Origin: Chitinophaga pinensis
GTDB lineage: Bacteria; Bacteroidota; Bacteroidia; AKYH767-A; OLB10
Length of the DNA: 33,111 nucleotides
Assembly (NCBI GenBank): GCA_943332105.1
Contig: CALQOD010000027.1
Location: 1 to 33,111 of the forward strand
Direction of reading: 5' to 3'
Below the pieces are notes generated by a model. The model made no database searches. It worked only from the letters and a program-made list of their open reading frames with translations, and had not been told where the DNA came from. Position 1 is the first letter of the stretch; each line of letters opens with the position of its first letter. A program made the translations under genes and the position numbers. This document shows, piece by piece, positions 7,884 through 27,756 of this stretch.

Positions 7884-10003
7884 TAAGCGATGGTGCTTCC
7901 GTTAGTTGTTTTTACAGAGGGCTGAACAAATATCAATTTACCGTGCTCATCTTCTGCCATTAAGATCATTCCGTTCGATTCAATTCCTCTTAATTTACGA
8001 GGAGCTAAGTTTGCAAGTAATGTTACTTGTTGTCCAACGATCTCTTCTGGTTTAAAATGCATTGCAATTCCTGATACAACTGTTCGTTGATCAATGCCTG
8101 TATCTATTGTAAGCTTTAATAATTTATCGGTCTTCTCTACTTTTTCAGCAGCGATGATCGTTCCAACACGTAAATCTATTTTAGCAAAATCATCATACGT
8201 ACTGGTTTCCTTCAAAGGCTTTTGTGCTGAAGCTTCTTCTGCTATTGCAGATTCTTGCTCGGCGGAGTCGATTTTTGCTTGCTGAGCGGAGTCGATTTTT
8301 GCTTGCTGAGCGGAGTCGAAGCAAGCTTCTTCATTTGCTTTTTTAGAAGCCATTAGTTTATCAATCTGCTGTTGCACTGCCTCGTCTTCTATTTTATCAA
8401 ACAACAATGAGGCTGTGCCTAATGAATGTCCTGATTGCATTAGATTTCCTGTAAACGCATTCGTCCAATCGTAATGAGATATATTCAACATGCTTCTGAT
8501 TTTCTCTGCAGTAAATGGCAGGAAGGGTTCACACAATGAGGCTAGTGCTGCAGTAATCTCTAATGAAATATTTAAGATGGTTTCTACGCGAGCGACATCT
8601 GTTTTATAAAGCTTCCACGGTTCTGTGTCTGCTAAGTATTTATTTCCTACGCGTGCTAAATCCATCATGTTTGCAAGCGCTTCACGGAAACGATATTTTT
8701 CTAGGCTCTCTTTCACATGATTTGAAATTGTAGCTGTTGACGCTAAACAAGCTTGGTCCATTTCATTTAATGTACCTCGTGCAGGAACTTTATTCTCAAA
8801 ATATTTTCCTGTTAACACCAACGTTCTATTCACGAAGTTTCCAAGTACTGCAACTAATTCATTGTTGTTTCTATCTTGAAAATCTTTCCAGGTAAAATCG
8901 TTGTCTTTTGTCTCTGGTGCAGTAGCACATAAAACATAACGAAGCACATCTTGCTTGTCTTTGAAATCAATTAAATATTCATGCAACCAAACAGCCCAGT
9001 TTCTAGATGTAGAAATTTTATCTCCTTCTAAATTTAAAAATTCGTTCGCAGGAACATTTTCAGGAAGGATATAGTCGCCATGAGCTTTTAACATCGCTGG
9101 GAAAATGATACAATGAAAAACGATATTGTCTTTCCCAATAAAGTGAATCAGTTTCGTGTCCTTGTTTTTCCAGTAATTCTCCCAATCATTCGGTAATAAT
9201 GCTTTCGTAGCAGAGATATATCCGATAGGTGCGTCAAACCAAACATACAATACTTTTCCTTCGTTGCCTGAAATTGGAACTGGCACTCCCCAATCTAAAT
9301 CACGCGTAACCGCTCTTGGCCGTAATCCTTGATCTAACCAGCTTTTACACTGACCAAAAACCGACTTCTTCCAATTATCTTCTTTGCTCATCAACCATTC
9401 GTTCAACCACTCATTTTGCATTTTGTCGAGTGGAAGGTACCAGTGTTTTGTTTTCTTCAATATAGGCGCTTTACCACTTAGTTGTGAGTGTGGGTTTATT
9501 AATTCATTCGGACTTAAACTCGTTCCGCACTTTTCACATTGATCGCCATACGCACCAGGGTTTGCACATTTAGGACAAGTACCCGTGATGTAACGATCAG
9601 CCAAAAACATATTCGCTTCTTCATCAAAATACTGTTCGCTTTCTTCCTCTGTAAAAAGGCCATCATCATATAACTTTTTGAAAAATCCTGAAGCTGTTTC
9701 ATGATGTACAGAATCAGAAGTACGATGATAGATATCGAAGGAAATTCCGAATTCTTTAAAAGCATCGCGCATCATCGCATTGTATTTATCGACTACTTGC
9801 TGAGGTGAGATACCATCTTTCTTTGCACGAATAGTAATTGGAACTCCATGTTCATCACTTCCACAAATAAACTTTACATCTCTGTTCATCAAACGTAAAT
9901 AGCGCACATAGATATCAGAAGGTAAATAACAACCTGCTATGTGGCCAATATGCAAAGGACCGTTCGCATAAGGCAGGGCTGCTGTAACTAAATATTTTGA
10001 CAT
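7883..10003 (-). CDS. metG: Methionyl-tRNA synthetase
   Basis: A 706-residue class I aminoacyl-tRNA synthetase that charges tRNA-Met. The HIGH motif is at residues 18-21 (PLHIGHIAG). The zinc knuckle is visible as [18 protein letters not shown], and the KMSKS equivalent as [13 protein letters not shown]. The anticodon-binding helical domain follows, and the C-terminal about 105 residues (from [15 protein letters not shown]) are the Trbp111/EMAP-type OB-fold used for dimerisation and tRNA binding. The linker before this OB-fold contains a short repeat, SAQQAKID twice and a partial third, encoded by a 24-bp DNA repeat (separate entry). It is the first gene of an operon with the endonuclease and the pyrophosphohydrolase. 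A Bacteroidota -7 element lies 20 nt upstream. Confidence 0.97.
8262..8326. repeat. 24-bp tandem repeat with palindromic end inside metG
   Basis: Two exact 24-bp units starting at 8262 and 8286, each beginning GCGGAGTCGA, are followed by a partial third (8310-8326). The last part forms an inverted repeat: GCTTGCT (8301-8307) with AGCAAGC (8320-8326). The core TGAGCGGAGTCGAAG resembles short dispersed palindromes that I know to be common in Bacteroidota genomes between genes. Here it lies in frame in the linker of MetG and encodes SAQQAKID units. Confidence 0.8.
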
Positions 10004-10022
10004 TCTTCTCTTATTTTCTCTG

Positions 10023-10030
10023 CAAATTTA
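10023..10030 (-). promoter_or_regulatory. Probable metG promoter, -7 element
   Basis: TAAATTTG on the minus strand matches the Bacteroidota -7 consensus TAnnTTTG exactly and is placed 20 nt upstream of the metG ATG. No clear TTG is present at the expected -33 position (GTT is seen), so the call rests on the -7 element and its position. Confidence 0.5.
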
Positions 10031-10132
10031 CTTTTTCCCTGTCACTTTTAACGTTGGATAAGAGAGTATTTTTATTCACACATCGGGGTTTCTCTTTAAT
10101 TTTCTGATGTATTGATTTACTTTCGTGGCACT

Positions 10133-11056
10133 ATGAAAACAATTCCTCCGTTTCTGCAGCCTGGTGACTGTATTGGTATTTGTGCTCCTGCCCGTAAAGT
10201 TTCTCCCGAAGAGATGAAAGATGGAATTGACTGGCTTGTTGCACAAGGATTTCAGGTTAAAGTAAGTCAGTACCTCTATGGCGAAAATCATCAGTTTTCT
10301 GGTACCGATGAAGAAAGAGCTGCCGATTTACAATCATTGATAGATGATCCCAAGGTAAAGGCGATTATTTTTGCCAGAGGTGGTTATGGGTGTGTGCGCA
10401 TAGTAGATAAAATTGATTTTTCTTCGTTGGAAAAAAATCCAAAATGGCTGATAGGATTCAGTGATGTAACGGTTCTTCATTCTCATATGAATATTCATCA
10501 CAGCATTTGTACGTTGCATGCTCCAATGATGATTAATCTGATGAATGACAAAAGAAATGAAGAGGCTGCTTCTAAAATAATCGATATCATAACGGGCAAG
10601 AATATCCGTTATAATGAAGTAACAACAAATTATTTAAATCGCGAAGGTTCTTGTGAGGGAGAATTAGTTGGTGGAAACTTGTCGTTGTTATATTCACTTG
10701 CAGGTACCCCAACCGGACTTTCAACAGATGGTAAAATTCTTTTTATCGAAGACCTTGACGAATATTTATATCATGTTGACCGTATGATAATGCAATTGAA
10801 AAGGGCAGATAAATTAAAACATTTGAAAGGGCTAATTGTAGGTGGCATGAGTGATATGCGAGACAATGCCATTCCTTATGGAAAATCCGCCATCGAAATT
10901 ATTGCAGAAGCAGTTGCAGAATATGATTACCCTGTTTGCTTTGATTTTCCTTCTGGGCATATCGACAGAAATCTGCCATTAGTATTGGGTACTGATGTGC
11001 TATTAGAAGTAGAAAATGAAGTGACTTTAAACTTTTTATATGAGCCAGCATCTTGA
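10133..11056 (+). CDS. ldcA: LD-carboxypeptidase (peptidase family S66)
   Basis: A 307-residue cytoplasmic peptidase of the LdcA family. These enzymes remove the terminal D-alanine from L,D-bonded murein tetrapeptides during cell-wall recycling. The catalytic triad can be read as Ser110 (GFSDVT), Glu206 (FIEDLDE) and His276 (PSGHIDRN). The conserved N-terminal GDCIGICAPA and ARGGYG turns are present. I place the start at ATG 10133 (MKTIPPFLQPGD), because the ATG at 10112 adds seven residues that do not belong to the family. The end overlaps yraN by 17 nt, which implies one transcript and coupled translation. The divergent metG gene shares the 130-bp upstream region. Confidence 0.93.
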   Translation: MKTIPPFLQPGDCIGICAPARKVSPEEMKDGIDWLVAQGFQVKVSQYLYGENHQFSGTDEERAADLQSLIDDPKVKAIIFARGGYGCVRIVDKIDFSSLEKNPKWLIGFSDVTVLHSHMNIHHSICTLHAPMMINLMNDKRNEEAASKIIDIITGKNIRYNEVTTNYLNREGSCEGELVGGNLSLLYSLAGTPTGLSTDGKILFIEDLDEYLYHVDRMIMQLKRADKLKHLKGLIVGGMSDMRDNAIPYGKSAIEIIAEAVAEYDYPVCFDFPSGHIDRNLPLVLGTDVLLEVENEVTLNFLYEPAS

Positions 11057-11396
11057 AGTTGGCGCGCAAGGCGAGTTGATTGCGCAAGACTTTCTTAAAA
11101 AGTTAGACTATCACATTTTAGAACAGAACTGGCGCTATAAGCACAAAGAAATCGACTTGATTGCGCTCGATAAAAATGACTTAGTGATTGTTGAAGTCAA
11201 AACCCGGAGGTCGAAGCGACATGGTGAAACGGAAGACTTTATCAGCTATCAAAAAATCAATTTTTTAGCAGATGCAGCAGGGAAATATGTGGAGCGCTTC
11301 AAGCAAGAAGTAAACATTCGATTTGACGTGATTACCATTTATCTTTTAGGAGAAGATGTCGTGGTGGAACATGTGAAAGAGGCGTTTCATCCTTAA
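11040..11396 (+). CDS. yraN: YraN / UPF0102 family nuclease-like protein
   Basis: A 118-residue protein of the UPF0102 family, which has a Holliday-junction-resolvase-like (restriction endonuclease) fold. The motif set is intact: GAQGELIAQDFL at the N-terminus, then KEIDLIALDKNDLVIVEVKTR, where the Asp and the Glu-x-Lys form the PD-(D/E)xK-like centre. The biological role is unresolved. It overlaps the end of ldcA by 17 nt, a strong sign of co-translation. Confidence 0.92.
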   Translation: MSQHLEVGAQGELIAQDFLKKLDYHILEQNWRYKHKEIDLIALDKNDLVIVEVKTRRSKRHGETEDFISYQKINFLADAAGKYVERFKQEVNIRFDVITIYLLGEDVVVEHVKEAFHP

Positions 11397-11446
11397 TTCG
11401 TTTAATCGGCTTTTTATTCCGACCTTTGCAGCATACAAAGTACCAC

Positions 11447-13516
11447 ATGAAAAAGTCTTTTAAGCCACGTCGCAACGAAGCTGGCAGCGATAAATCAGGA
11501 GCAAGAAAAAGGGGGAGTCAGGATAGGCCAGCTGGAAGAACAAGAAGAAACAGTTCCGATAAAAATCAGGAAGAGAAGCCCTCTTCTTTCAAAAGTCGCC
11601 GTTCAAATTTCAGCAATTTCGATAATCCGAGGTTTATAAACGACAAAGACAGCGTTTCGAAACAGGCTGGCTGGGATAATTTTGATGCACCGTCCGACAG
11701 AAAGCGACCATCAAGAGACAACGACGATAGACCAAAGAGGTCTTTTTCAAGAGACAATGATGATCGTCCGAAAAGAAGTTTCTCAAGTGATAGCGAAGAT
11801 AAACCAAAAAGAAGTTATTCTCGCGATAATGATGATCGTCCGAAGAGGGCTTTTTCTAGAGATGGCGAGGACAAGCCAAAAAGAAGTTATTCTCGCGATA
11901 ATGATGATCGTCCGAAAAGAGCTTTTGCGAGAGACAACGACGATAGACCAAAGAGGTCTTTTTCAAGAGACAATGATGATCGTCCGAAGAGGGCTTTTTC
12001 GAGAGATGGCGAGGACAAACCAAAGAGAGCTTTTTCGAGAGATGGTGACGACAAACCAAAGAGAGCTTTTTCAAGAGATGGCGACGACAAACCAAAAAGA
12101 AGTTATTCTCGCGATAATGATGATCGTCCGAAGAGGGCTTTTTCGAGAGATGGCGACGACAAGCCAAAAAGAAGTTATTCTCGCGACAATGATGATCGTC
12201 CGAAGAGGGCTTTTTCGAGAGATGGCGAAGACAAACCAAAAAGAAGTTATTCTCGCGATAATGATGATCGTCCGAAGAGGGCTTTTTCGAGAGATGGCGA
12301 CGACAAACCAAAGAGGGCTTTTTCAAGAGATGGCGAAGACAAACCAAAAAGAAGTTATTCTCGCGACAATGATGATCGTCCGAAGAGGGCTTTTTCGAGA
12401 GATGGCGAGGACAAGCCAAAGAGAGCTTTTTCGAGAGACAATGATGATGGACCGAAAAAGGCGTTCTCAGGAGATAGTGATGAGAAGCCAAAGAGAAGCT
12501 ATTCTCGTGATAATGATGATCGTCCAAAAAGAAGTTTCTCAAGTGATAGCGAAGACAAACCGAAGAGAGCTTTTTCGAGAGACAATGATGATGGACCGAA
12601 AAAGGCGTTCTCAGGAGATAGTGATGAGAAGCCAAAGAGAAGCTATTCTCGTGATGGTGATGATCGTCCGAAGAGAAGTTATAAAAAATCAGCTGAAAGC
12701 GAATCAAAAAGAGGTTATTCAGCAGGACGTGAGGAGTTTCGTTCGAAAAAATCGCAACGTGGAACCTTTACTGAAAATGGCGCTATACGCTTAAACCGTT
12801 ATATTTCGATGGCCGGAATTTGTTCTCGTCGCGAGGCAGATGAAATGATTGTAGCGGGTGTTGTTTCCGTAAACGGAAATGTAGTAACCGAATTAGGAAG
12901 CAAGGTAGAGCCAGGAGATGATGTTCGTTATAACGGAGAGCGCCTGAAGAATGAAACACATCGTTATATTTTGTTGAACAAGCCAAAGGATTATATCACT
13001 ACGATGGAAGATCCTAATGCACGAAAGACAGTGATGGAATTAATTTCTGGAGCATGTAGAGAGCGCGTTTATCCAGTAGGACGTTTAGACCGTTTAACAA
13101 CAGGATTATTATTGTTTACCAACGATGGTGATTTAGCAAAGGTGTTAACGCATCCAAGTTCATTGGTTCGTAAAATATATCATGTGGAGTTGAGTAAAAA
13201 TGTAAAGGCTTCCGACTTAAAACTTATTGCTGAAGGTGTTGAACTCGAAGATGGTTTTATGCAGGTAGATCAGGTAGCTTACGATGGTGATGGTACTGAT
13301 AAGAAGATGGTAGGCTTACAGATTCACTCTGGTAAAAACAGAATTGTTCGTCGTATTTTTGAACATCTAGGCTATGAAGTTGTAAAACTAGACCGTGTGA
13401 TGTTTGCTGGCTTAACTAAAAAAGATTTGCCAAGAGGAAGATATCGTTCATTAACGGAGACAGAAGTAGGAATGCTGAAGATGATCTCTCCAAAACGCAT
13501 GAAAGGCGTACGTTAG
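11447..13516 (+). CDS. RsuA/RluB-family pseudouridine synthase with long repetitive N-terminal extension
   Basis: A 689-residue protein with a normal C-terminal enzyme and a 440-residue low-complexity N-terminus. The S4 RNA-binding domain starts at about residue 447 (IRLNRYISMAGICSRREADE). The catalytic motif GRLDRLTTGLLLFTNDGDLA places the nucleophile at Asp548, and the family motif KNRIVRRIFEHLGYEV follows. Such enzymes convert specific uridines of 16S or 23S rRNA to pseudouridine; the target site cannot be decided here. Residues 90-413 are 27 tandem 12-residue units of the type RDNDDRPKRAFS, with strongly alternating charge, presumably disordered. I use ATG 11447 (MKKSFKPRR) rather than the ATG at 11426, because a promoter-like GACCTTTGC lies at 11421-11429 and the basic start is typical. 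Charged extensions on this enzyme are familiar in Bacteroidota; this one is long and regular. Confidence 0.9.
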   Translation: MKKSFKPRRNEAGSDKSGARKRGSQDRPAGRTRRNSSDKNQEEKPSSFKSRRSNFSNFDNPRFINDKDSVSKQAGWDNFDAPSDRKRPSRDNDDRPKRSFSRDNDDRPKRSFSSDSEDKPKRSYSRDNDDRPKRAFSRDGEDKPKRSYSRDNDDRPKRAFARDNDDRPKRSFSRDNDDRPKRAFSRDGEDKPKRAFSRDGDDKPKRAFSRDGDDKPKRSYSRDNDDRPKRAFSRDGDDKPKRSYSRDNDDRPKRAFSRDGEDKPKRSYSRDNDDRPKRAFSRDGDDKPKRAFSRDGEDKPKRSYSRDNDDRPKRAFSRDGEDKPKRAFSRDNDDGPKKAFSGDSDEKPKRSYSRDNDDRPKRSFSSDSEDKPKRAFSRDNDDGPKKAFSGDSDEKPKRSYSRDGDDRPKRSYKKSAESESKRGYSAGREEFRSKKSQRGTFTENGAIRLNRYISMAGICSRREADEMIVAGVVSVNGNVVTELGSKVEPGDDVRYNGERLKNETHRYILLNKPKDYITTMEDPNARKTVMELISGACRERVYPVGRLDRLTTGLLLFTNDGDLAKVLTHPSSLVRKIYHVELSKNVKASDLKLIAEGVELEDGFMQVDQVAYDGDGTDKKMVGLQIHSGKNRIVRRIFEHLGYEVVKLDRVMFAGLTKKDLPRGRYRSLTETEVGMLKMISPKRMKGVR
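11714..12685 (+). repeat. 27 tandem copies of a 36-bp coding repeat
   Basis: A 972-bp array of 36-bp units in the pseudouridine synthase gene, with no spacers between units. Protein units alternate between an N-type (RDNDDRPKRAFS) and a G-type (RDGEDKPKRSYS or RDGDDKPKRAFS), with a few S-types (SDSEDKPKR, GDSDEKPKR) near the 3' end. A 48-residue block (RDNDDGPKKAFS onward) appears twice, which shows duplication of multi-unit blocks. Because the period is a multiple of three, several shadow frames stay open across it. Confidence 0.95.
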
Positions 13517-14589: not shown

Positions 14590-16734
14590 TTACGACAATC
14601 CTGTAATCACACCATTCTTATCGATATCCATATGCTCCGATGCAGGAGTTGCTGGTAGTCCAGGCATGCGCATAATATCTCCTAAGATAGGAATGATAAA
14701 TCCTGCACCTGCTGCATATTCGAATTCGCGCACGGTAATGGTGAAGTTTGTAGGGCGACCAATCTTCTTTTCATCATCAGAAAGCGACTTTTGTGTTTTC
14801 GCCATGCAAACCGGAAGTTTATCGAAGCCTAATTCCTTAATCGATTTTAATTGCAACTTTGCCGTTGACGAATATTCAACACCGTTAGCACCATAAATTT
14901 CTGTCGCTATCGTTTTGATTTTATCTTCTACCGATAAGTTCCAGTCGTATAAAGGCTTAAAATTGTTTTTGCCAGACTCGATTTCGCTTATCACTACTTC
15001 AGCTAATGCTTTTGTCCCTTCTCCTCCTTTCGCGAAGCCTTGAGATACTACCGCTTTCACTCCATGCTTTGCACAAGCTTCAATAACAAAATCAATTTCT
15101 TCTTGCGTATCACTCACGAAATTATTAATCGCAACAATAGGAGTAATTCCGAACTTCTTACAGTTCTCAATATGCTTCTCTAAATTCTCAAATCCTTTTT
15201 GAACACGCTCTAAACTCGCTGTGTTATACTCTTCTTTTTTCGCTCCTCCATGATGACGAAGCGCACGAATCGTAGCCACCAACACAATGGTTTCTGGTTT
15301 TAAATTTCCATAACCACATTTAATATCCATGAACTTTTCTGCTCCTAAATCTGCACCAAAGCCCGCTTCCGTTACTACGTAGTCGCCTAGCGTTAGTCCC
15401 ATCTTTGTTGCAAGAATAGTATTCGTACCTTGTGCAATATTCGCAAATGGACCCCCGTGTAAAATAGCAGGATTCCCCTCTAACGTCTGTACTAAATTTG
15501 GTTTGATGGCATCCTTTAACAAAATCGCCATCGCACCTTGTGCGTTTAACTCGCGCGCAAAAACAGGACGTTTATCAAAAGTATATCCAACGAAAATAGA
15601 ACCTAATCTGTTTTTCAAATCTTCAACATCCTTCGACATACAAAGGATAGCCATAATTTCTGAAGCGGCTGTAATATTAAATCCATCTTCACGAGGAATT
15701 CCATTTGCTGTTCCTCCAATACCAATTACGATATGACGCAACGCACGATCATTCATATCCATCACGCGCTTCCACACTACCGTACGCGGATCAATATTTA
15801 ACGAACGTGTTTTACTTTGAATATTATTATCGATAATCGCTGCTAATAAATTATTTGCTTTTTCAATCGCAGAAAAATCACCTGTGAAATGCAGGTTAAT
15901 ATCTTCCATCGGAATCACCTGTGAATATCCTCCACCTGCTGCTCCGCCTTTAATTCCGAAAACTGGTCCGAGAGATGGCTCACGCAATACCACAATCGAC
16001 TTCTTACCAATCTTATTCAATCCTTCGTTTAGTCCGATAGAAACAGTGGTCTTACCTTCTCCTGCTGGTGTTGGATTAATTGCAGAAACTAAAATCAGTT
16101 TACCCTTTTTTACTTTCTCTTCATCAATCAGGTGTAAAGGAAGCTTCGCTTTATGTTTACCATAATATTCGAGCTCTTCGGCATCAATACCAATTTTAGC
16201 TGCAATTATTTTTATATGTTGGATGTTTGCGCTTTGCGCAATTTCTAAATCAGAAGGGAAATTAGCCACGTCGTTTATTTTTTGATGCTCAAATGTATTA
16301 AAATAAATCCTAAGATTTCGAGAGATCATCCCTCCCCACAGTAGCCCGCTTTTCATACACGAAACCGTTATACTGCAAAAGCCAAATTCGATATCTACTC
16401 TTCCTGTTATCAGATAAATTCCTCGCCCACGAAAAGGATATTGTTTATGTATCATCGGAAAGTGGGTCGTATCTACAAAGGCTCCTTCTTCATCTATAAA
16501 ACAACCAAACGACATCGACTCGCCCTTGCCGGTACGGGTAGGTTTAATCGTAACAAGATAACCCAATATGCAAACTTGCTTTCCTACATAGTCTGATAAT
16601 TCCTTCACTTTAATTTTAGGATGCGGAAATTTTTCGGGCAGCTGTTTTAATAATCGAAATGGCGAACACACAGGAAAGCCTATCAACTCTATTTCATCTA
16701 ACGCATCTTCTAAATCAGAAGGGAAATTAGCCAC
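14590..16734 (-). CDS. fhs: Formate-tetrahydrofolate ligase with DnaE-derived N-terminal extension
   Basis: The open frame has 714 codons, but the enzyme proper is the last 559, a normal Fhs length. It starts at a GTG at 16269 ([20 protein letters not shown]). Fhs makes 10-formyl-THF from formate, THF and ATP. In the 559-residue numbering the phosphate-binding loop TPAGEGKTT is at 67-75, followed by [22 protein letters not shown] and the family motif [22 protein letters not shown]. Upstream, the frame stays open through 155 codons. These start at a second GTG (16734), repeat the Fhs start (VANFPSDLE), then continue as the DnaE C-terminal OB domain ([17 protein letters not shown] to GFCSITVS). 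A 1-bp deletion near 16353 moves the DnaE frame into the Fhs frame and bypasses the old dnaE stop (16310-16312). Whether translation starts at 16734, 16269 or both is not decided: both GTGs have nearly the same upstream sequence. Confidence 0.9.
16252..16716 (-). repeat. Duplicated unit: dnaE 3' end plus fhs start
   Basis: This 465-bp unit (minus strand) contains, in order, a copy of the last about 400 bp of dnaE, its stop, the dnaE-fhs spacer and the first codons of fhs. The fhs start therefore occurs twice, at 16734 and 16269, exactly 465 bp apart. The joint is a 9-bp microhomology, GATTTAGAA, at 16708-16716. The same nonamer occurs in the full dnaE (23503-23511) and in fhs (16243-16251). 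Against the intact dnaE the copy shows 23 differences in about 356 aligned bases, plus a 1-bp deletion near 16353. Confidence 0.88.
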
Positions 16735-16759
16735 GTCGTTTATTTTGATGCTCTAATTT

Positions 16760-16797
16760 ATTATAATAGTCGTATTCATTACATCGACTATTATAAT
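16760..16797. repeat. Perfect 13-bp inverted repeat at the edge of the accessory block
   Basis: ATTATAATAGTCG (16760-16772) and CGACTATTATAAT (16785-16797) are perfect inverted copies around a 12-nt loop. The repeat lies between the CAP-protein stop and the duplicated fhs start, only about 7 bp from the block edge. It could end transcription of the AAA+/CAP operon, though no U run follows on the minus strand, or mark the block end. Confidence 0.7.
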
Positions 16798-16822
16798 TGT
16801 GAAGAAAAATTATTTGGATGAC

Positions 16823-17554
16823 CTACAAACTAGCCATTACTAAAGTTGAATAAACGAGGTGTTTAAGTTTTGATCCAGTATTTGACTCTAAAACCGAGAA
16901 GCCAATAAGAGTTATATGAGGATGAAGCATTGCTTCATTGTGACCTGGCGACTCCTTCCATGCATCGAAGATATTGCATATTGTTTCCTTCGTGATTGTA
17001 GTTGAGATGAAAAAGGGCGAGTTTCCTACCTCACCAAGCATACCGCAGTTTTCGTGTAGGTTATTAAAAGTTTTCTTTTGCTTATTATACTTGGCCACTC
17101 TATCTTGACAAGAATAATAAGCTTTTCCATCAATGTTTTTTGATGTTTCAAAATGAGTCATCATTTTATTATTGCTTGTCCATAGGCTATGAAGGTAACT
17201 TGCCGAGTCTAAACAAGCATTTAAACTTACCTCTGCTAGCCCTTTACTCTTTCTATATTGATTAATTAGTTGTAAGAATAGAGTGTCCGCTTCTTTTGGA
17301 CTTATAGCAACCTCCACTATTTGATTTTTTGTGAGCGCCGCTATGGTTATACTATCCATCATTCTTATTGCTTCCGGTGTAGGCTCATACACTTTGACAG
17401 ATTTACTTTTAGTATGGTTCTCTTGTGCAATACAATTGTTGACAATGAACAATAAAGCAAATAGAATGATTAGATTATTTCTATTCACCTTATTTTTGGT
17501 TGTTTTAAAACAACACAAGCTTGCTTTTAAAATAGAATTGTTAATCGCTTTCAT
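16823..17554 (-). CDS. Secreted CAP (SCP/PR-1) domain protein
   Basis: A 243-residue exported protein. A hydrophobic segment at about 27-43 (NLIILFALLFIVNNCIAQ) follows an unusually long basic N-terminus, so it is a long signal peptide or a membrane anchor, or the true start lies downstream. The CAP domain fills about 85-243. Family marks are the first helix LFLQLINQYRKSKGLAEVSLN, the HENCGMLGEVG segment and the helix ending WKESPGHNEAMLHPHITLIGFS. Bacterial CAP proteins are secreted and often bind lipids or act in cell-envelope interactions; a catalytic function is not established. It is the last gene of a three-gene operon with the AAA+ ATPase, 32 nt after the preceding small gene. Confidence 0.85.
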   Translation of the reverse strand: MKAINNSILKASLCCFKTTKNKVNRNNLIILFALLFIVNNCIAQENHTKSKSVKVYEPTPEAIRMMDSITIAALTKNQIVEVAISPKEADTLFLQLINQYRKSKGLAEVSLNACLDSASYLHSLWTSNNKMMTHFETSKNIDGKAYYSCQDRVAKYNKQKKTFNNLHENCGMLGEVGNSPFFISTTITKETICNIFDAWKESPGHNEAMLHPHITLIGFSVLESNTGSKLKHLVYSTLVMASL

Positions 17555-17586
17555 GATTTTATCGTTTAAACCGTTTATTAAAAATC

Positions 17587-17889
17587 TTAGCTTTTTATAT
17601 TCCTCGTATCATTGATGATATCTCTAGCCATTTTACAAACCTCATAAAGTTCCTTCTCCTCAAGCACGTTTATCGCCTTAATGCATATTACTTTAAAATT
17701 AACTTGACGAAGTTTAACTTGAAATAATTCTTCTTCAATAACATAAATTACATGCACCATTCCTTTAGTATTATTATCTAATTTAAAATAATAAATATTG
17801 TAAATAAGATCTGAGTATAGCTTTTCCAAACCAACGCTATGAACGATTTTTTCAAGCGAATCTTCCAATGAATCATTATTCAGTTTCAT
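17587..17889 (-). CDS. Small protein of unknown function in the AAA+ operon
   Basis: A 100-residue protein when started at ATG 17889 (MKLNNDSLEDSLEKI); an upstream ATG at 17916 would give 109 residues. It overlaps the end of the AAA+ gene by 14 nt, so the two are probably co-translated. It has no signal peptide. The sequence alternates predicted helix and strand (NIYYFKLDNNTKGMVHVIYVIEEELFQVKLRQVNFKVICIKAINVL) and ends in a charged helix. I recognise no family. The overlap suggests a partner or adaptor of the ATPase, which is inference from position only. Confidence 0.65.
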   Translation of the reverse strand: MKLNNDSLEDSLEKIVHSVGLEKLYSDLIYNIYYFKLDNNTKGMVHVIYVIEEELFQVKLRQVNFKVICIKAINVLEEKELYEVCKMARDIINDTRNIKS

Positions 17890-19567
17890 ATGCTTGATTT
17901 TCTTTTTTAACGACAAATCCAGTAATTTTATTGTGCTTTACTTGTGGAAAAAGGCTTACTTCCTCTGAGTGAAAATACTTTTCCACTATATCCATTGTCA
18001 TTGGCGTATTAAACAATATTTGATCAAATACTATCTTTCTAGAAACATTAGTTACTTGACCTCCTGTTAATTTATACTTTGCAGCAAGCTGAGAAACCTC
18101 GAAGGAGTTAAGACAAGTAATTTTATCTGCAATTATTTTTCTTAGCGTTTCGACAGTTGGATTAGTGAATTTTATTTTAAATAGGAATCGTCTTTCAAAT
18201 GCTTTATCAAAGTTAAACTGTAAGTTAGTTGTTGCTATTAAAATTCCTTTGAAATTTTCCATTTCTTCCAAAATGATGTTTTGAATTGTATTGTTCATTT
18301 GATCAACAGAGGAGTTAATTTTAATTCGGTTACTAAATATTCCATCTGCTTCGTTTAATAATAATATAGGTGCCTTTTCACTGCTTTTACAGATTTTTTT
18401 ATAATTGACAAAAACACTCCTAATTCTTTTTTCACTTTCACCAACATATTTATCTTTTAACATACTCAAATCAACTTTTTTTATCGCTCTATCTGTTCTC
18501 TTTGCAATTTGTAGAACAGATTCGGTTTTGCCGGAACCTGGAACTCCGTAAAACAATGCACAAATCCCTTCATTTAAGTTTTTATCTGATAGCGTTTTGA
18601 TTATCGTTTGATAATTATCCTCCATTAAAGAATTGCTTAACATTTCTAATTGTTGCTTCTCTTGCGTATTCAAATGTATTATAACCGAAGGTGTTGTTGC
18701 TGGGAGAATAAGACCTTCGTTTGTAAGTGTGTTCTCACTAATAATACTGTTGTATTCTATTCCAAACAGGTCTTGTTTTGTTTCTTCAGTAAAGCGGAGC
18801 AACTCACGGTTTTCGAAATTCTCTCCATCAAATTCTACAATTTTGTTTTTAATTATCGAGGCTGTTTTATTCATGATCGACTTTTTGATATAATTTCTTT
18901 CTCGATATCCCCTAAATAATTCTGAAGAGGCTTCATTGTAGTTTATAGTAAAGTCCTTATTAAGATAATTATAAAACATGTGTGCAATTATTATTATCTC
19001 TTCGTCTCTATATTCTTTATTGAGTATTATATGGCTTATCATTAAATCTTGATTTTTATTAGCTATCCTCTTGTAATAACTAACTGCTTGGTCTATGGTT
19101 ACTCGTCTAGCTTTTAAGTGGTCTTCATATGCTTCTATTTTTTCTGCAAACCCTATTAGGTCAGTCTTTAAATTTTCTTGCCTGGGTGCGTGTCCTTTGA
19201 AAATGGCATCTTTGACTTCTGGTGTAACTACAAAGTCAAACCTACCCACGTAGCTTTCGCACTTAAAAACAAACCCAAAATCAATTAGCGAGTCTAATGT
19301 TTCAAACATCATCGGGTATTTTTTAAGTGGAATATTTAATTGTTCCGCTATATCTCGTGAAGTTGCATCTTTGTCTTTACAATTCAAATAAAAAACTGTC
19401 GCAAAAAACAGGGCCTGCTCGTCGGTCAATCCTGTTGACTCAGATAAATTATTGGCTAGTTCTTTAACCTTGGAGTGTTCTAGAATAGTTGCATGCTTTT
19501 TATTGCTAGCATCATTTAATAAATCGCCAATTTCACTGATTGTTTCAATACATGTTTTCTTTTCCAT
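17876..19567 (-). CDS. AAA+ ATPase with winged-helix-like N-terminus
   Basis: A 563-residue protein. The C-terminal AAA+ module is complete: Walker A GVPGSGKT at 341-348, Walker B-like ILLLNEADGIF at 401-411 (Asn405 replaces the usual Asp; Glu406 is kept), a pore-loop-like segment KDKYVGESEKRIR at 371-383, sensor 1 ATTN at 445-448, and arginine-finger candidates Arg459/Arg460 in FERRF. The pattern is that of the FtsH/spastin-like group with one AAA domain. The N-terminal 110 residues include a winged-helix-like stretch (ATSRDIAEQLNIPLKKYPMMFETLDSLIDFGFV). No membrane segment or protease domain is visible. It heads the operon AAA+ - small protein - CAP protein and is divergent from the HExxH protein. 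It is probably a remodelling ATPase; the target is unknown. Confidence 0.85.
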   Translation of the reverse strand: MEKKTCIETISEIGDLLNDASNKKHATILEHSKVKELANNLSESTGLTDEQALFFATVFYLNCKDKDATSRDIAEQLNIPLKKYPMMFETLDSLIDFGFVFKCESYVGRFDFVVTPEVKDAIFKGHAPRQENLKTDLIGFAEKIEAYEDHLKARRVTIDQAVSYYKRIANKNQDLMISHIILNKEYRDEEIIIIAHMFYNYLNKDFTINYNEASSELFRGYRERNYIKKSIMNKTASIIKNKIVEFDGENFENRELLRFTEETKQDLFGIEYNSIISENTLTNEGLILPATTPSVIIHLNTQEKQQLEMLSNSLMEDNYQTIIKTLSDKNLNEGICALFYGVPGSGKTESVLQIAKRTDRAIKKVDLSMLKDKYVGESEKRIRSVFVNYKKICKSSEKAPILLLNEADGIFSNRIKINSSVDQMNNTIQNIILEEMENFKGILIATTNLQFNFDKAFERRFLFKIKFTNPTVETLRKIIADKITCLNSFEVSQLAAKYKLTGGQVTNVSRKIVFDQILFNTPMTMDIVEKYFHSEEVSLFPQVKHNKITGFVVKKENQAYETE

Positions 19568-19868
19568 ATTATTATTTTTATAGTTAACTAATACAAATGG
19601 CCAATACCTAATTAAAACTAAAATGGTTTGGTTATTTATTAATCGCCATTCTGATTAATCTGTAAAATATGTAGGTGTAGTTTATAAGATGTTTGATTAA
19701 TTATAAAAGCATCTTGAAAAGCGTTTGTCAAATGTGAACTATTTTTTTATTACTTCCAAATTGGGGCTAGACTTTTTTTATTAATTTTTGTTTACACAAT
19801 AAGTTTATGATAGGTGCGTTTAATTTGCTTTTTATTATAAATAATACAATAAATACTGTTTTTAAATT
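19568..19868. other. Divergent intergenic region, 301 bp
   Basis: This very AT-rich stretch separates the AAA+ operon from the HExxH gene and must contain promoters for both. It holds a 7-bp hairpin (ATTAATC at 19638-19644 with GATTAAT at 19653-19659) and one arm of a long-range 19-bp inverted repeat (19749-19767). A -7-like TAATTTGC lies at 19821-19828, without a convincing -33 element. I see no gene or RNA in it. Confidence 0.5.
19749..19767 (+). repeat. Left arm of 19-bp inverted repeat around the HExxH gene
   Basis: ATTACTTCCAAATTGGGGC here and the reverse complement of 20439-20457 agree at 18 of 19 positions. The arm lies 101 bp upstream of the HExxH protein start. Confidence 0.8.
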
Positions 19869-20348
19869 ATGTTACTTAGATTTATAATTTATCTTGTTTT
19901 TATTTTATTTATTGGAACAGCTCTTTATTATTGGCTTAATGAAAACAAGCCAACAAACAACGCTACTGAAATAGATTCATGTTTGATAGACTGCGTTAAT
20001 GAATGGAGGAGCACACTTCTTAGTGAGGGCTTTGATTCGAAACCAGTGTTTACATCGCTTCGCAGTATTAAAATAAAGAAGCTCTCAGAAGAAATGGTGG
20101 GCATTACACATTACTATAAAAAAACAATTGAGATTGATCCAGCTATTTTAACACAAGGCACCTTTGCTTTACGTGCCACTATTTATCATGAACTAGGACA
20201 TTATGCTTTTGGGCTTAATCACGAGAGTTGTAAAATTATGTCTACTACAATTCTAAGCGAAAAAGAATACAAAGAACATTGGGATGATATGAAGAACGAA
20301 TACATCGAGCTAATCAGGAAGCAAGATTTTGAAACTCATCTTCCATAA
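19869..20348 (+). CDS. Membrane-anchored putative zinc metallopeptidase
   Basis: A 159-residue protein with one N-terminal membrane segment (residues 4-22, FIIYLVFILFIGTALYYW). The C-terminal part lies outside the cytoplasm or in it, depending on orientation. The zinc site is HELGHYAFGLNH: His107, Glu108, His111 and a third histidine, His118, followed by KIMS with Met124 as a Met-turn candidate. The spacing (six residues between the second and third His) is one longer than classic metzincins, but it matches a group of small Bacteroidota putative metallopeptidases of the HELGHxxLxRxH type. The region before it (KKTIEIDPAILTQGTFALRATIYHELGH) is consistent with an active-site helix. It is flanked by a 19-bp inverted repeat and divergent from the AAA+ operon. 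The substrate is unknown. Confidence 0.75.
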   Translation: MLLRFIIYLVFILFIGTALYYWLNENKPTNNATEIDSCLIDCVNEWRSTLLSEGFDSKPVFTSLRSIKIKKLSEEMVGITHYYKKTIEIDPAILTQGTFALRATIYHELGHYAFGLNHESCKIMSTTILSEKEYKEHWDDMKNEYIELIRKQDFETHLP

Positions 20349-20438
20349 TTCTAAATTTATTCTCGCAGACTCTATTATTTTTATGATTGGTTTTTATTGT
20401 TGATGGCGATCTTATAAAAATATTTTCAGTTTTTTTTC

Positions 20439-20457
20439 GCCCCGATTTGGAAGTAAT
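20439..20457 (-). repeat. Right arm of 19-bp inverted repeat around the HExxH gene
   Basis: GCCCCGATTTGGAAGTAAT is the inverted partner of 19749-19767 with one mismatch. It lies 119 bp upstream of the next gene. A 7-bp hairpin (AATCGCC at 20537-20543 with GGCGATT at 20564-20570) follows, ending just before that gene's ATG. Confidence 0.8.
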
Positions 20458-20576
20458 GAACAATCTTTATATATTATGCTTTCATAATCGAATTCTCTTT
20501 TACCTATAAGAAAATAAACGCAAAAATATAGACGCTAATCGCCAGACCCTAACAATCTAAAAGGGCGATTCTCTAT

Positions 20577-21131
20577 ATGAAAAAACAATGCGTTACAGAA
20601 CTCGAGAAAATAAAAAATGTTTCTCGTTACGTATGGCACATTACGCCATCATTTCAATCCTCTGCACTATCTATTGCGGAAGAGGGCCTTATTAAAAATG
20701 AATTTGTATTTGCGCACAACAATCTTCGCAGACTGGGAGATTCGTATCCTTACTTCATTGACAGTCTTGACATGATGATGTCTAAAGATCTAGAAGACAA
20801 AGATTTCTTTTTAGCTTATGATTACTGGCGCATTGACACCTCTTTGCTGGACTTCGATTGGTTCATTGATCCTTATATGGTTGAAGACATTTCTATTTAT
20901 TGCAGCCGTTTTGCTTCATTACAAAACTATGTATGTACGCCTAACGACATACCTCCGCATGCACTTACATTATTTAATTTTGACAACTCACGTTATCTTT
21001 CTCGTCCTACGCGCGTAAAGTATTATGAAGGCTCTGCCTCTGCCTTACCTTGTCGAAGCGACTTCGACACGCTCGTGTATGATAATAGTATTAATGGGTT
21101 TATCAAACACCTTATTAATAAAAATAAATAA
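20577..21131 (+). CDS. Unknown protein with an ART-like N-terminal HIT motif
   Basis: A 184-residue cytoplasmic protein without signal or membrane segment. The N-terminus reads RYVWHITPSFQSSALSIAEEG, then LIKNEFVFAHNN. This order (aromatic-HIT, a helix, GL, then a strand with the next conserved residues) resembles the opening of ADP-ribosyltransferase-like folds such as DarT and related phosphotransferases. The rest (aromatic-rich FDWFIDPYMVEDISIYCSR, then NDIPPHALTLFNFD) does not settle the question. The C-terminal segment ALPCRSDFDTLVYD is encoded over a palindromic repeat (21051-21069). A strong terminator follows 13 nt after the stop. The function is undetermined; the ART-like idea is weak. 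Confidence 0.7.
   Translation: MKKQCVTELEKIKNVSRYVWHITPSFQSSALSIAEEGLIKNEFVFAHNNLRRLGDSYPYFIDSLDMMMSKDLEDKDFFLAYDYWRIDTSLLDFDWFIDPYMVEDISIYCSRFASLQNYVCTPNDIPPHALTLFNFDNSRYLSRPTRVKYYEGSASALPCRSDFDTLVYDNSINGFIKHLINKNK
21051..21069. repeat. Short palindromic repeat inside the 20577-21131 gene
   Basis: TGTCGAAGCGACTTCGACA is a perfect 8-bp inverted repeat around CGA, continuing into ACGCTCG. Its CTTCGACACGCTC part resembles a dispersed palindromic repeat type of Bacteroidota and the TGAGCGGAGTCGAAG motif inside metG (8302-8321). It is read in frame as CRSDFDT. Confidence 0.7.
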
Positions 21132-21143
21132 CCGCTTCCTATT

Positions 21144-21168
21144 AAGAGGGGGTATTGCCCCCTCTTTT
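21144..21168 (+). terminator. Intrinsic terminator
   Basis: A perfect 9-bp stem (AAGAGGGGG paired with CCCCCTCTT) has a 5-nt loop and a following TT. It starts 13 nt after the stop of the ART-like gene and stands out for its G/C stem in AT-rich surroundings. Confidence 0.88.
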
Positions 21169-21208
21169 ATAATTCACTTTATAATTAATCAACTAAAAAA
21201 TATTACTT

Positions 21209-21493
21209 ATGTGGGACCACACACCTGATGGGCATTATATTGCTCCAGACTCTAAACGATTAGAGTATCAAAAAAAGTTAAGCTCTTTAACGAATGATGA
21301 ACTTTTAGTTTTTGTTCGAGCTTATGAAAACTGGTTATCCGACCAACGGGTAAACGACCTTTCGCAAGCCTTTCTTGGTTTTTTTTCTATGGCTTATTGC
21401 GATAATAATCCGAAACAACTCGCTGCTTATTTAGAAGAGTATGATGCTATATGTAGAGAAATTGCGAGGAGGTGGGTTGGGAAAAAATTGTAG
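21209..21493 (+). CDS. Small protein of unknown function
   Basis: A 94-residue protein starting MWDHTPDGHYIAPDSK, without signal peptide or membrane segment. It is mostly helical and charged (KRLEYQKKLSSLTNDELLVFVRAYENWLSDQR), with an aromatic stretch (AFLGFFSMAYCDN) and a basic end (CREIARRWVGKKL). It has no recognised family. It stands alone between the terminator of the preceding gene and a 185-bp gap before a convergent gene. The open frame with an ordinary composition supports a real gene, but nothing more can be said. Confidence 0.6.
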   Translation: MWDHTPDGHYIAPDSKRLEYQKKLSSLTNDELLVFVRAYENWLSDQRVNDLSQAFLGFFSMAYCDNNPKQLAAYLEEYDAICREIARRWVGKKL

Positions 21494-21678
21494 ACTTTAT
21501 TTATTAAAGCTGTCAATATTTAATTTTTATTATTTTTAAATTATCGGCCGAACGGCCTCGGTGACTTACAATTACTAAATCGCAACTATTGTTTTTGTTA
21601 GTTTATCATTATTAAACTTTTTTGGTAGTGCTAGCAAATGTATCACTTTGCTATCTTGACGACTTCAAGACTGCAGAA

Positions 21679-22356
21679 CTATGGCACTTGCACGCTGTTA
21701 TACATTGTTTTTGTTATAAGTTTTAAATGCCATATCAATCGCTCATAAGAACCAATGTCTAAGGCTCGTTGTCCAGTTAGCATACTGCTTAAGAAAACAG
21801 GTTTGTCTGTCTTAGTTAAATAGGTTCCTAAATTTTCGTTCCATTTAAGCTCAAGAGCATTTTTAAGAACTTTTGATGCAAAGGCATTTTCAATTACAAT
21901 TATTTTCGGTTCAATAATGCTTATCAGCTCTATTGACAATTTAATTTGTTCTTGATAAAAGTAATCATTAATTTTCTTTTCTATTACCTTTTGATTGGTT
22001 TCCCTTTCAAATAACAGGTCTATATGTTCCCATTCTATATTTAATTCCTTAGATATTTCAGCAAATTTTTTGAAATACGGATATTTTGCTTTTGCAAGCA
22101 ATCCAATGCTTTTAAAAACCTCTACTTTACCATCTTCGAAGGTGTTGAAGTTAAAATACGAGTCAAGGTCATTTAATATATCAGAATATTGTTTTTCATC
22201 TTTTAAAATTTGTTTCAGACCTATTATGCTAAAAGATGGATTTAATCCTATAAATAATAGCGCATTTTTTTTAAGCTCTGGATAAAAGTTGGGCGACCTT
22301 TTTTGATTTCGATTAGTCTGCCACAATTTTATTATTTTTTCGTTTATTAAATTCAT
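21679..22356 (-). CDS. Unknown protein, possible uracil-DNA-glycosylase-like fold
   Basis: A 225-residue cytoplasmic protein. It has the segment ALLFIGLNPSFSIIGLKQIL near the N-terminus, a central helical part, the strand PKIIVIENAFASKVL, and near the C-terminus VFLSSMLTGQRALDIGSYERL. A GLNPS-type loop after a hydrophobic strand, a middle I-V-x-E-N strand and a late S-x-x-x-G-x-x loop are reminiscent of the uracil-DNA glycosylase superfamily (Mug/TDG have GINPG). The key residues are not convincing, so this is only a hint. The last codons run into an AACAGCGTGCAAGTGCC stretch before TAG, where the real reading frame end may have shifted. It belongs to the accessory block and is probably transcribed with the upstream FISUMP gene or alone. 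Confidence 0.6.
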   Translation of the reverse strand: MNLINEKIIKLWQTNRNQKRSPNFYPELKKNALLFIGLNPSFSIIGLKQILKDEKQYSDILNDLDSYFNFNTFEDGKVEVFKSIGLLAKAKYPYFKKFAEISKELNIEWEHIDLLFERETNQKVIEKKINDYFYQEQIKLSIELISIIEPKIIVIENAFASKVLKNALELKWNENLGTYLTKTDKPVFLSSMLTGQRALDIGSYERLIWHLKLITKTMYNSVQVP

Positions 22357-22450
22357 TATCTGTAAATATGTTTTATAGCAGTTGCATTTAAAAGATGTTA
22401 CCTTATGTTGTTCGAATTAATCGGGACAGTGCGGCAATATTGCTTACACG

Positions 22451-23059
22451 CTATCGCTGGTTTGTTTCTTTTATTAATCTAATCGAGCACCCCCAATCAT
22501 ATTTCCAACTCGCAGGGATGATTCTTTTCTCTGGAAATTCATAATTACTTAAAAATAAGACTAATGGATATTCATTATTATGATTCATCCAATAAACCAG
22601 TGAATCTTGGTTATCTATTAAATCATAATTACTATAGCCAAGAATTTTACTTATAATACCACAAGGTTGTGCATTAAAATCGACAGAATTTATTCCGTTT
22701 TGCCTGCTCCAACCACTTATTGATTTTAGGTGCGTTGCTACAGGAGGTAATTTAAAGCCTATATTTTGAATATTATTGCTCTTTATTATATAATTAAAAA
22801 GTTGGTCGAAATCGCTTTCAAATGGTATTCTCCAACCATTGGGTACAATTTCTTTGGCTTGTTCGACTACATGATGATTGTATATTTTTCCTTGATTTTT
22901 TTCTTCTAAATTTTTATAATTGCAATACGCTGGTATTTTGTTGTTAAATGCAAATTCCCATTCAGCAGGTGTATTAGCAGGATATAAAGGTTCGCCATTG
23001 ATATATTTTGTAATATCAAAATCATTTTCAGACCATATTTGATCGCCTATTTGTATCAT
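22451..23059 (-). CDS. FISUMP domain protein
   Basis: A 202-residue protein made of a single FISUMP domain (Fibrobacter succinogenes major paralogous domain). Marks are the start MIQIGDQIWSENDFDITKYINGEP, then GKIYNHHVVEQAKEIVPNGWRIPFESDFDQLF, the SGWSRQNGINSVDFNAQPCG segment, and the end GCSIRLIKE. Most FISUMP proteins are exported lipoproteins, but this one has no signal peptide and appears cytoplasmic, as is common for stand-alone forms in Bacteroidota. The function of the domain is not known. It begins about 45 bp from the dnaE stop, at the right edge of the accessory block. Confidence 0.85.
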   Translation of the reverse strand: MIQIGDQIWSENDFDITKYINGEPLYPANTPAEWEFAFNNKIPAYCNYKNLEEKNQGKIYNHHVVEQAKEIVPNGWRIPFESDFDQLFNYIIKSNNIQNIGFKLPPVATHLKSISGWSRQNGINSVDFNAQPCGIISKILGYSNYDLIDNQDSLVYWMNHNNEYPLVLFLSNYEFPEKRIIPASWKYDWGCSIRLIKETNQR

Positions 23060-23103
23060 AATTATTTTTTTATGTCAAATATATTAGTTTTATTAAATAA
23101 ATT

Positions 23104-23511
23104 TCAAGTTTTTGATAAATCATCCCTCCCAACCGTAGCCAGCTTTTCCATCCACGAAACCGTTATACTACAAAAGCCAAATTCAATATCTACTCTTCCT
23201 GTTATCAGATAAATTCCTCGCCCGCGAAAAGGATATTGTTTGTGTATCATCGGAAAATGGGTGGTATCTACAAAGGCTCCTTCTTCGTCTATAAAACAAC
23301 CAAACGACATCGACTCGCCCTTGCCGGTACGCGTAGGTTTAATCGTAACCAGATAGCCCAAGATGCAAACTTGTTTCCCTACGTAGTCTGATAATTCCTT
23401 CACTTTAATTTTAGGATATGGAAATTTTTCGGGCAGCTGTTTTAATAATTCAAACGGAGAACAAACCGGAAAACCTATCAACTCTATTTCATCTAACGCA
23501 TCTTCTAAATC
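23104..23511 (-). repeat. dnaE 3' end, parent of the duplicated segment near fhs
   Basis: This part of dnaE encodes the last 136 residues (the OB-fold) and is about 93.5 percent identical over about 356 aligned bases to the copy at 16320-16716. Nearly all differences are silent in the DnaE frame; only Glu-Arg, Tyr-His and Trp-Cys changes are seen before the 1-bp deletion in the copy. Confidence 0.88.
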
Positions 23512-26577: not shown

Positions 26578-27756
26578 TTATTGATTGTCTGATTTATTTT
26601 TTTGATTGTATTTCAATCCGACCGCCCTTGAAACAGCCGCGTTGCCAAACTTTTTGCGCAAATGATCCATGGCCTGGTACAAATTAATGATCTCTTCGGA
26701 GTCTTCAAAAAGGTTGATTTGATTTCCGCCACCCACCAGATGACTAAATCGAATTCCAATCAGGCGAATCAGCATTCGGCGTTCATATAGTTTATCAAAA
26801 AGCTCCTTCGCTTTTGCTATAAGCGTATGGTCGGAAGAGGTGTATGATATGCGCGACTGTGTAGTATGCGTATCAAAATTCGAGTAACGTATTTTTACGG
26901 TAATGCATGCCGTTAGTTTATTATCAGAACGTAATTGAAAAGCCAGCTTCTCCGTCATCTTTACCAATAACGATTTCAAAAATGCTACATCGGCTGTATC
27001 TTGTTCAAAGGTTTCCTCGGTAGAAATCGATTTACGTTCGCTGTAGGGTTCAACGGGAGTATTGTCGATGCCATTAGCTTTTTTCCAAAGCACGATTCCG
27101 TTTTCGCCTAATACTTTTGTTAAGAGGTCGGGCGGCATTTCCTGTAAAGTATAAACACGTTCAACGCCCATGCTTCGTAAAAGCGTGTAGGTTTTATCAC
27201 CTACCATCGGAATCTTTTTAATAGAGAGTGGCGCAAGAAATAATTTTTCGTTCCCAAAATCAATCTGCTTTTGTCCGTTAGGCTTTGCTTCTCCCGTTGC
27301 TACTTTCGATACCGTTTTATTTTCTGATAATCCGAAGGAAATAGGAAGTCCTGTTTCTTTCATGATACGCTGTCGCAATTCCGAAGTATAATTATAACAT
27401 CCAAAAAAACGATCCATGCCTGTCATGTCAATATAAAACTCATCGATGGATGCTTTCTCATAAACAGGAACATCTTCTTTAATAATATCGGTGACCACTT
27501 CTGAATAATACGAGTAGCGATCATAATCACCACGAATAATAATCGCATCCGGACAAAGTCGGCGGGCCAGTTTAATCGGCATCGCGGAGTGCACTCCAAA
27601 GGCGCGAGCCTCGTAACTACAAGCGGCTACAACGCCTCTATCACTAGTACCTCCAACAATAACGGGTTTGTTATGCAACGCAGAATTTTCCAGTCGTGAA
27701 ACCGAAACAAAGAAACTATCCAGATCCATATGCACTATCGTGCGGTCTTTTTGCAT
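26578..27756 (-). CDS. dinB: DNA polymerase IV (Y-family, DinB)
   Basis: A 392-residue Y-family translesion polymerase. The first catalytic site is at the N-terminus (Asp11 in VHMDLDSFFVSVS), and the second is Asp105-Glu106 in KASIDEFYID. The helix-hairpin and little-finger regions follow (PMVGDKTYTLLRSMGVERVYTLQEM, then LLVKMTEKLAFQLR). A beta-clamp binding motif QINLF lies at 346-350, 42 residues before the end. I set the start at ATG 27756 (MQKDRTIVHMD): the longer frame to 27930 would run through the operators and into the divergent repressor gene and adds residues foreign to the family. A 15-bp near-match to the operator (GATTGTATTTCAATC, 26604-26618) lies in its last codons. Expected to be induced by DNA damage with dnaE. 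Confidence 0.94.
   Translation of the reverse strand: MQKDRTIVHMDLDSFFVSVSRLENSALHNKPVIVGGTSDRGVVAACSYEARAFGVHSAMPIKLARRLCPDAIIIRGDYDRYSYYSEVVTDIIKEDVPVYEKASIDEFYIDMTGMDRFFGCYNYTSELRQRIMKETGLPISFGLSENKTVSKVATGEAKPNGQKQIDFGNEKLFLAPLSIKKIPMVGDKTYTLLRSMGVERVYTLQEMPPDLLTKVLGENGIVLWKKANGIDNTPVEPYSERKSISTEETFEQDTADVAFLKSLLVKMTEKLAFQLRSDNKLTACITVKIRYSNFDTHTTQSRISYTSSDHTLIAKAKELFDKLYERRMLIRLIGIRFSHLVGGGNQINLFEDSEEIINLYQAMDHLRKKFGNAAVSRAVGLKYNQKNKSDNQ

Follow-up and report, generated by a model that had tools for sequence, protein, structure and literature searches.

According to PMC3240628, joints formed by homology-facilitated illegitimate recombination (HFIR) mostly consist of 3-10 bp of microhomology, the other end being homologous, and the mean insert length is about 1 kb. 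In Vibrio T6SS clusters, orphan immunity genes and displaced 3′ ends of effector genes were described, with HFIR proposed as the likely process (PMC5361080). For restriction-modification systems, insertion with long, variable target duplication was reported (PMC3031569, PMC3154945). Among polymerase genes, a DnaE2B-PolY-RecA group was described in Bacteroidetes (PMC12926913).

Here, a stretch of 33,111 nucleotides from Chitinophaga pinensis (assembly GCA_943332105.1, contig CALQOD010000027.1), further referred to as the window, was analysed. In this window the 3′ end of a dnaE2 gene lies in one open frame with fhs, which an earlier note had described as a fusion formed by duplication and a 1-bp deletion. 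Judged from comparison with related genomes, the piece before fhs is probably the 3′ end of the dnaE2 that the recipient already had, pushed aside by a one-sided insertion; a rough probability of 0.65 was assigned to this reading.

Results

Structure of the chimeric frame

The open frame comprises 714 codons against 559 for fhs by itself, and the additional 155 codons run through a copy of the dnaE 3′ end (Table 1). The start sequence VANFPSDLE was found twice, at 16734 and 16269, 465 bp apart; the last three of its nine codons (DLE) are common to the fhs start and dnaE2. The repeated block around both starts (16243-16305 and 16708-16768) showed 92% identity with one gap. Following alignment within the window, the dnaE copy (16716-16275) matched 23511-23062 with an E value of 4e-157, the best 393 bp (against 23119-23511) being 92.9% identical and weaker similarity extending approximately 35 nt beyond the dnaE2 stop. 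The microhomology at the joint, GATTTAGAA, is present at three sites in the window (16243, 16708 and 23503) versus 0.82 expected, and at least three sites were obtained in 2 of 100 shuffles. The single-base deletion was located at 16354/16355, leaving the old dnaE2 stop codon (TAG, 16310-16312) out of frame. The stretch following the deletion was free of stop codons in about 9% of single-base shuffles. Every feature that the earlier note had given at base level was confirmed.

Table 1. Features of the window around the dnaE2-fhs joint
Feature	Position	Strand	Basis or remark
Chimeric frame	14590-16734	-	9 fhs-start codons, ~118 dnaE2 codons, ~28 out-of-frame codons, followed by fhs
fhs, formate--tetrahydrofolate ligase, 559 aa from native GTG	14590-16269	-	Pfam FTHFS, NCBIfam PRK13505
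Old dnaE2-fhs spacer	16270-16309	-	G003 and G004 have closely similar spacers, as does L067 after its intact dnaE2
dnaE2 3′ end (DnaE2 residue 895 to stop)	16310-16716	-	alignment to intact gene
Joint of fhs start and dnaE2, 9 bp, GATTTAGAA	16708-16716	-	also at 16243-16251 and 23503-23511
Second copy of the region upstream of fhs with the 9 opening codons of fhs	16708-16768	-	GTG 16732-16734
Accessory insert, ~6.3 kb	16769-23061 (edges approximate)	both	low GC, family DNA search
CAP-domain protein	16823-17554	-	Pfam
AAA ATPase, weak IetA/TRIP13 similarity	17876-19567	-	Pfam
SprT-like protein, below cut-off	19869-20348	+	Pfam
Insert frame without assignment	20577-21131	+	
Insert frame without assignment	21209-21493	+	
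Insert frame without assignment	21679-22356	-	
Fib_succ_major protein	22451-23059	-	Pfam
Intact dnaE2-type polymerase, 1029 aa	23104-26193	-	same window and strand, 6.4 kb from copy
Y-family polymerase (IMS) adjoining dnaE2	26578-27930	-	domain match

The source gene and the inserted segment

The label 'replicative dnaE' for the source gene at 23104-26193 was dropped, as the window's genome carries a second, longer DnaE on contig C41, likely the replicative enzyme, and a Y-family polymerase gene adjoins the gene in the window. Nearby, one gene encodes both helix-turn-helix and S24 peptidase domains. The product passed the cut-off of the polc superfamily model TIGR00594 (524.6 versus 434.35) and scored below that of the NCBIfam error-prone DNA polymerase PRK05672 (499 versus 939 bits), so that the name dnaE2-type rests on gene context. 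Identity to dnaE2 of another member of the genus (G003; L020, 1764-4853) swings between 75 and 94% from one 150-nt block to the next, which suggests mosaic recombination of dnaE2 between the two; no single crossover point was found by sliding identity against G003.

Between the two dnaE2 copies, the GC content drops to 31.7%, versus 39-41% in the flanking DNA. In a DNA search of 24 family genomes including the window's own, in which up to 12 candidates were scored for each genome, no counterpart of the insert was obtained in the 23 other genomes besides two matches of approximately 30-50 bp. With its presence in one of 24 genomes, these short matches apart, and its low GC content, the segment appears to be foreign DNA acquired beside dnaE2. 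The insert also contains a 109-codon frame at 17587-17916. Seven other insert proteins were scanned with Pfam; no integrase was recognised among these seven, three of which gave no Pfam match at all. Nothing was detected at gathering scores by Rfam over 16000-23600. Elsewhere in the window, a 696-codon frame (11426-13516) carries many internal direct repeats at about 11714-12682, spaced by multiples of 36 nt.

Gene order around fhs in related genomes

The fhs gene was present in five of the seven genomes of the genus. In three of these five (G000, which is the window's own, G003 and G004), a dnaE2 tail directly precedes fhs with a closely similar spacer, and the three tails have different left ends. 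Compared to intact DnaE2, the tail of G004 was 95% and that of G003 73% identical; no intact dnaE2 was found in G004 using full-length DnaE2 as query. Upstream of fhs, the frame in G003 is open for about 33 codons, not in the dnaE frame, and that in G004 is interrupted by a TAG codon. At locus L067, intact dnaE2 is followed by a spacer of the G000 type and a few bases resembling the fhs start. This match scored 32, the best of 500 shuffles reaching 17, and the same spacer scored 16, 16 and 19 behind the intact dnaE2 of L066, L068 and the window, respectively. No fhs was found in the genome of L067, which is of unstated completeness, and an intact dnaE2 directly before an intact fhs was seen in none of the genomes examined.

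The simplest reading of these gene orders is that dnaE2 and fhs were once neighbours in this branch of the genus. Adjacency applies to one branch only, because in G001 and G002 another gene precedes fhs and in G001 dnaE2 is located 11.4 kb from fhs, where no tail is present.

Recurrence of dnaE2 tails

Using full-length DnaE2 as query, five tail pieces were obtained in the seven genomes of the genus (one each in G000, G004 and G005, two in G003), all C-terminal and 73-96% identical; the other matches were the main gene and other DnaE genes at 31-35%. The tails of the genus begin at DnaE2 residues 893-895, 966, 974, 980 and 987. A profile search of 42 genomes of the order yielded extra tails in G000, G003, G004, G005 and G015, all belonging to the window's family, and none in other families of the order. 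G030, with two nearly whole C-terminal matches, one of them in a 359-aa frame, was not counted. In G015, which belongs to another genus, dnaE2 (C56, L048) contains additional repeat-rich sequence within the 3′ part of the gene, and C267 (L049) carries a dnaE2 tail that is short and decayed.

From 114 dnaE2-like loci found, 80 were kept, assigned to Bacteroidota by title, 63 of which had at least 5 kb of downstream sequence. A tail on the same strand, 0.6-1.9 kb downstream, was present in five of the 80: L066 (G005) and L068 (G003), both of the window's genus, L075, L086 and L105, the last from an isolate of Ekhidna lutea. Weak, upstream-only matches in L077 and L115 were not counted as tails. 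Downstream 3′-end repeats were found for four of 70 testable dnaE2 genes versus three of 590 other genes that were 200 aa or longer (Fisher p 0.003), and for 3/69 versus 3/590 when the same-genus locus L068 was left out (p 0.017). The 70 genes do not include L066, cut by a contig end; L113, a full paralogue, was dropped. In control stretches of G000 and G003, the repeat was found for two of 427 genes of at least 150 aa, two of the three G000 hits, which represent full-length paralogues, being omitted. The corresponding contrast of 2/2 versus 2/427 (p 6.5e-5) was set aside, as those two dnaE2 genes had prompted the test. As judged from these comparisons, dnaE2 appears enriched for downstream 3′-end repeats, with small counts and with first examples that prompted the test. 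The tail pattern is pronounced in one genus and seldom seen outside it.

Other genes are flanked by dnaE2 3′ ends in G000, G003, G005, L075, L086 and L105. Between intact dnaE2 and the tail, G005 encodes a PDC-S01-type ATPase, L086 a ParE toxin beside a small unassigned frame, G003 a methyltransferase and L075 an ATPase_2 protein; the cargo of L105 and three of the window's insert proteins gave no assignment. Behind dnaE2 of G003 (C54; L020, 4984-8750), the methyltransferase and the dnaE2 tail are followed by an EcoRI-type methylase and a GmrSD/HNH endonuclease.

Repeated 3′ ends were also observed for other genes. In L075, the locus that carries a dnaE2 tail, a DinB-like polymerase gene, named by eye (9947-11125, minus strand), has a 131-bp 3′-end repeat (93% identity) 884 nt downstream. 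In G000 (C18; L166, 11162-14074), the last approximately 43 nt of a polyprenyl synthetase-like gene, also named by eye, recur at least three times downstream (+99, +1001 and +1144). The first two repeats enclose a DUF5615/DUF433 pair, and a Gp49/HTH pair follows closely after the third; this looks like the same 3′-end pattern around units of the toxin-antitoxin type. In G003 (C7; L175, 7526-9259), 61 nt of the rho 3′ end recur 346 nt downstream with 98% identity, followed by near-identical terminator-like sequence.

Divergence of the copy and alternative origins

Over the 120 codons before the deletion, 24 differences were counted between the copy and intact dnaE2, 20 silent and four non-silent. 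Changes were polarised using two outgroups, G005 and G003, in a genus that seems to recombine. Eight changes, all silent, were assigned to the copy and nine (five silent, four non-silent) to the intact gene; seven, all silent, were ambiguous. Among all possible single changes 78% are non-silent (74% when weighted for transitions), and at 0.75 expected the probability of observing none in eight is 1.5e-5. Because all eight assignable changes are silent, the divergence of the copy seems to date from a time when it still formed the end of a functional dnaE2. The non-silent shares in the remnant of G005 (7/24) and in the DinB-like remnant of L075 (1/9) agree with this; those in G003 (8/18), the dnaE2 remnant of L075 (12/23), L086 (7/10) and L105 (5/10) do not discriminate, being compatible with decay in place.

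The origin by duplication and deletion given in the earlier note is not well supported, in view of the eight silent and zero non-silent changes on the copy and the tails before fhs in two other genomes. An in-place tandem duplication of 465 bp between two GATTTAGAA sites, at a time when dnaE2 and fhs were neighbours and with foreign genes entering the first spacer later, does predict both the 465-bp spacing and a single 9-bp joint, needs no donor, and could draw on the capacity of transformation to make tandem duplications, though far larger ones (PMC3784515). A copy formed in this way would drift freely, yet its assignable changes are silent throughout and 4/24 of all differences are non-silent versus about 62% expected under a rough hand-made model; gene conversion could mask such drift. 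On balance, this origin is considered unlikely. That the tail was displaced rather than brought to fhs is the more likely course, because a dnaE2 tail precedes fhs in G003 and G004 as well. A site-specific integrative element that attaches within the 3′ end of dnaE2 and restores it on integration would also rebuild an intact gene and leave the old tail on the opposite side, as is seen in several genomes. With no integrase recognised among the seven insert proteins scanned, three of them without a Pfam match, and no fixed core, the tails of the genus starting at five different places, such an element is very unlikely. Still less credit was given to an assembly or binning artefact: the assembly consists of 147 contigs, but the join of remnant and fhs recurs in G003 and G004, the copy is 7% diverged from its source, and mixing of strains with the orders dnaE-insert-fhs and dnaE-fhs would not be expected to yield the fhs/dnaE joint, which neither holds. 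Plain assembly error was set aside.

The product of the fhs region

The Pfam FTHFS profile matched over its full length (867.7 bits, profile positions 2-556 of 556, residues 161-714 of the long frame), and the fhs product exceeded the cut-off of the NCBIfam equivalog PRK13505. The native GTG is conserved in all five genomes of the genus having fhs, the window's included. It is preceded by TACATTTG at 16290-16297, which fits TAnnTTTG, a Bacteroidota -7-like element. Before 16734, the upstream copy has TAAATTAG in place of the native TACATTTG and lacks the TAnnTTTG box. The earlier suggestion that either start may be used, drawn from the similarity of the upstream sequences, is weakened by this difference. 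Because a dnaE-to-fhs frame was seen in neither G003 nor G004 and the native GTG is kept, the 559-residue enzyme from the old GTG is likely the product to be expected.

Least probable of the readings weighed here is a functional fusion, i.e. a 714-residue OB-Fhs protein made from GTG 16734 and kept by selection. The frame is open across the dnaE2 part into fhs and no amino-acid change was assigned to the copy branch. The dnaE part was predicted with a block pLDDT of 85-94 for residues 41-130, and the model matched RPA and other PDB chains, presumably OB folds, with a query TM of 0.41-0.54 among the 50 matches listed. This fold assignment rests on the structure model, because a PDB sequence search with the tail profile returned none up to E 1. 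On the other hand, the fused frame is missing in G003 and G004, and the unfused tail of G004 is conserved at 95% identity to intact DnaE2, so that conservation needs no fusion. The last dnaE2 residues were lost to the frameshift, pLDDT is below 50 at residues 134-155 and for most of residues 1-21, the open stretch following the deletion has an approximately 9% chance of arising, and the native box before the start is replaced. A plasmid search with the long frame gave 66 records, three of which cover at least 80% of the query; the five matches listed cover only the fhs part (query 151-713). No report of a dnaE2/fhs fusion was found by exact words in open-licence PMC text. The chimeric OB-Fhs protein put forward in the earlier note is possible, its dnaE part being modelled with good confidence and matching OB folds, and is unlikely to be selected; the joining is real and the fusion probably incidental.

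Discussion

The displacement of a resident dnaE2 tail, preferred here, may have proceeded as follows. Earlier in this branch, dnaE2 would have been located directly upstream of fhs. A relative in which dnaE2 was followed by foreign genes and then fhs would have supplied DNA that entered the cell, and this incoming DNA (dnaE2 tail, ~6.3 kb of low-GC DNA and fhs start) would have paired by homology inside dnaE2. At its other end, a 9-bp chance match, GATTTAGAA, between the donor fhs start and resident dnaE2 codon 895 may have been used. The outcome would be an intact dnaE2 ending in the donor tail and, behind it, the foreign genes, a short remainder of donor fhs and then the tail of the resident dnaE2 with resident fhs, so that the present order could be reached in one step from a donor dnaE2-insert-fhs and a dnaE2-fhs chromosome. 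Loss of one base from the tail, by then without use, would later have opened the frame into fhs by chance, and a similar process may repeatedly have left dnaE2 tails in this genus. Two diverged dnaE2 alleles are present in the window, and the 3′ part of the intact gene would be the incoming one. A donor with the order dnaE2 - insert - fhs was not found among the 24 genomes searched. Genes with ComEC and DprA domains are present in the window's genome; these say little, because 10 and 11 of the 14 control genomes, respectively, have them as well.

If the locus is read in this way, one-sided recombination can leave debris that looks like a domain fusion, and the silent-site divergence of the fragment, taken with gene order in relatives, may distinguish such debris from a real fusion. 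The repeated dnaE2 tails would mark a spot of recurrent entry of foreign genes in this genus and, less often, in other Bacteroidota. More tentatively, and doubtful as a general rule, SOS-type polymerase genes, namely dnaE2 and, at a single locus, a DinB-like gene, might offer in their 3′ ends a preferred docking place for small defence or toxin-antitoxin units in Bacteroidota, each piece bringing its own polymerase tail and so rebuilding the gene. Stacked tails would then record successive acquisitions and, if confirmed in larger samples, a mutagenesis gene would be linked to the uptake of defence genes. No report of dnaE2 as an integration hotspot or of displaced remnants in Bacteroidetes was found by exact words in open-licence PMC text.

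The mechanism itself is already known from T6SS effector 3′ ends and from long target duplications; a possible dnaE2 hotspot is the part of interest beyond it. By gene context, the source gene resembles the DnaE2B-PolY-RecA group as presented in PMC12926913, being likewise a second DnaE beside a Y-family polymerase. As in the HFIR events reported in PMC3240628, one homologous end and one microhomology end would be combined, with foreign DNA beside a conserved anchor gene. The 9-bp joint falls inside the 3-10 bp range given there; the insert of 6.3 kb is several times the average, and the event is proposed here from the sequence. Long target duplication, as reported in PMC3031569 and PMC3154945, likewise places defence or toxin-antitoxin-type genes between repeats of a host gene end, as seen in G005, L086 and also L166, but the repeats in the window are 7% diverged, with most of the differences silent, and thus look like two alleles and not like a recent target duplication. 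With the C-terminal displacement of Vibrio T6SS effectors (PMC5361080) and of rhs genes, as cited there, the locus shares a constant 5′ gene, a new 3′ end arriving with cargo, an old 3′ end moved downstream and serial insertions, whereas the anchor in the window is an error-prone polymerase gene whose old tail has no evident use.
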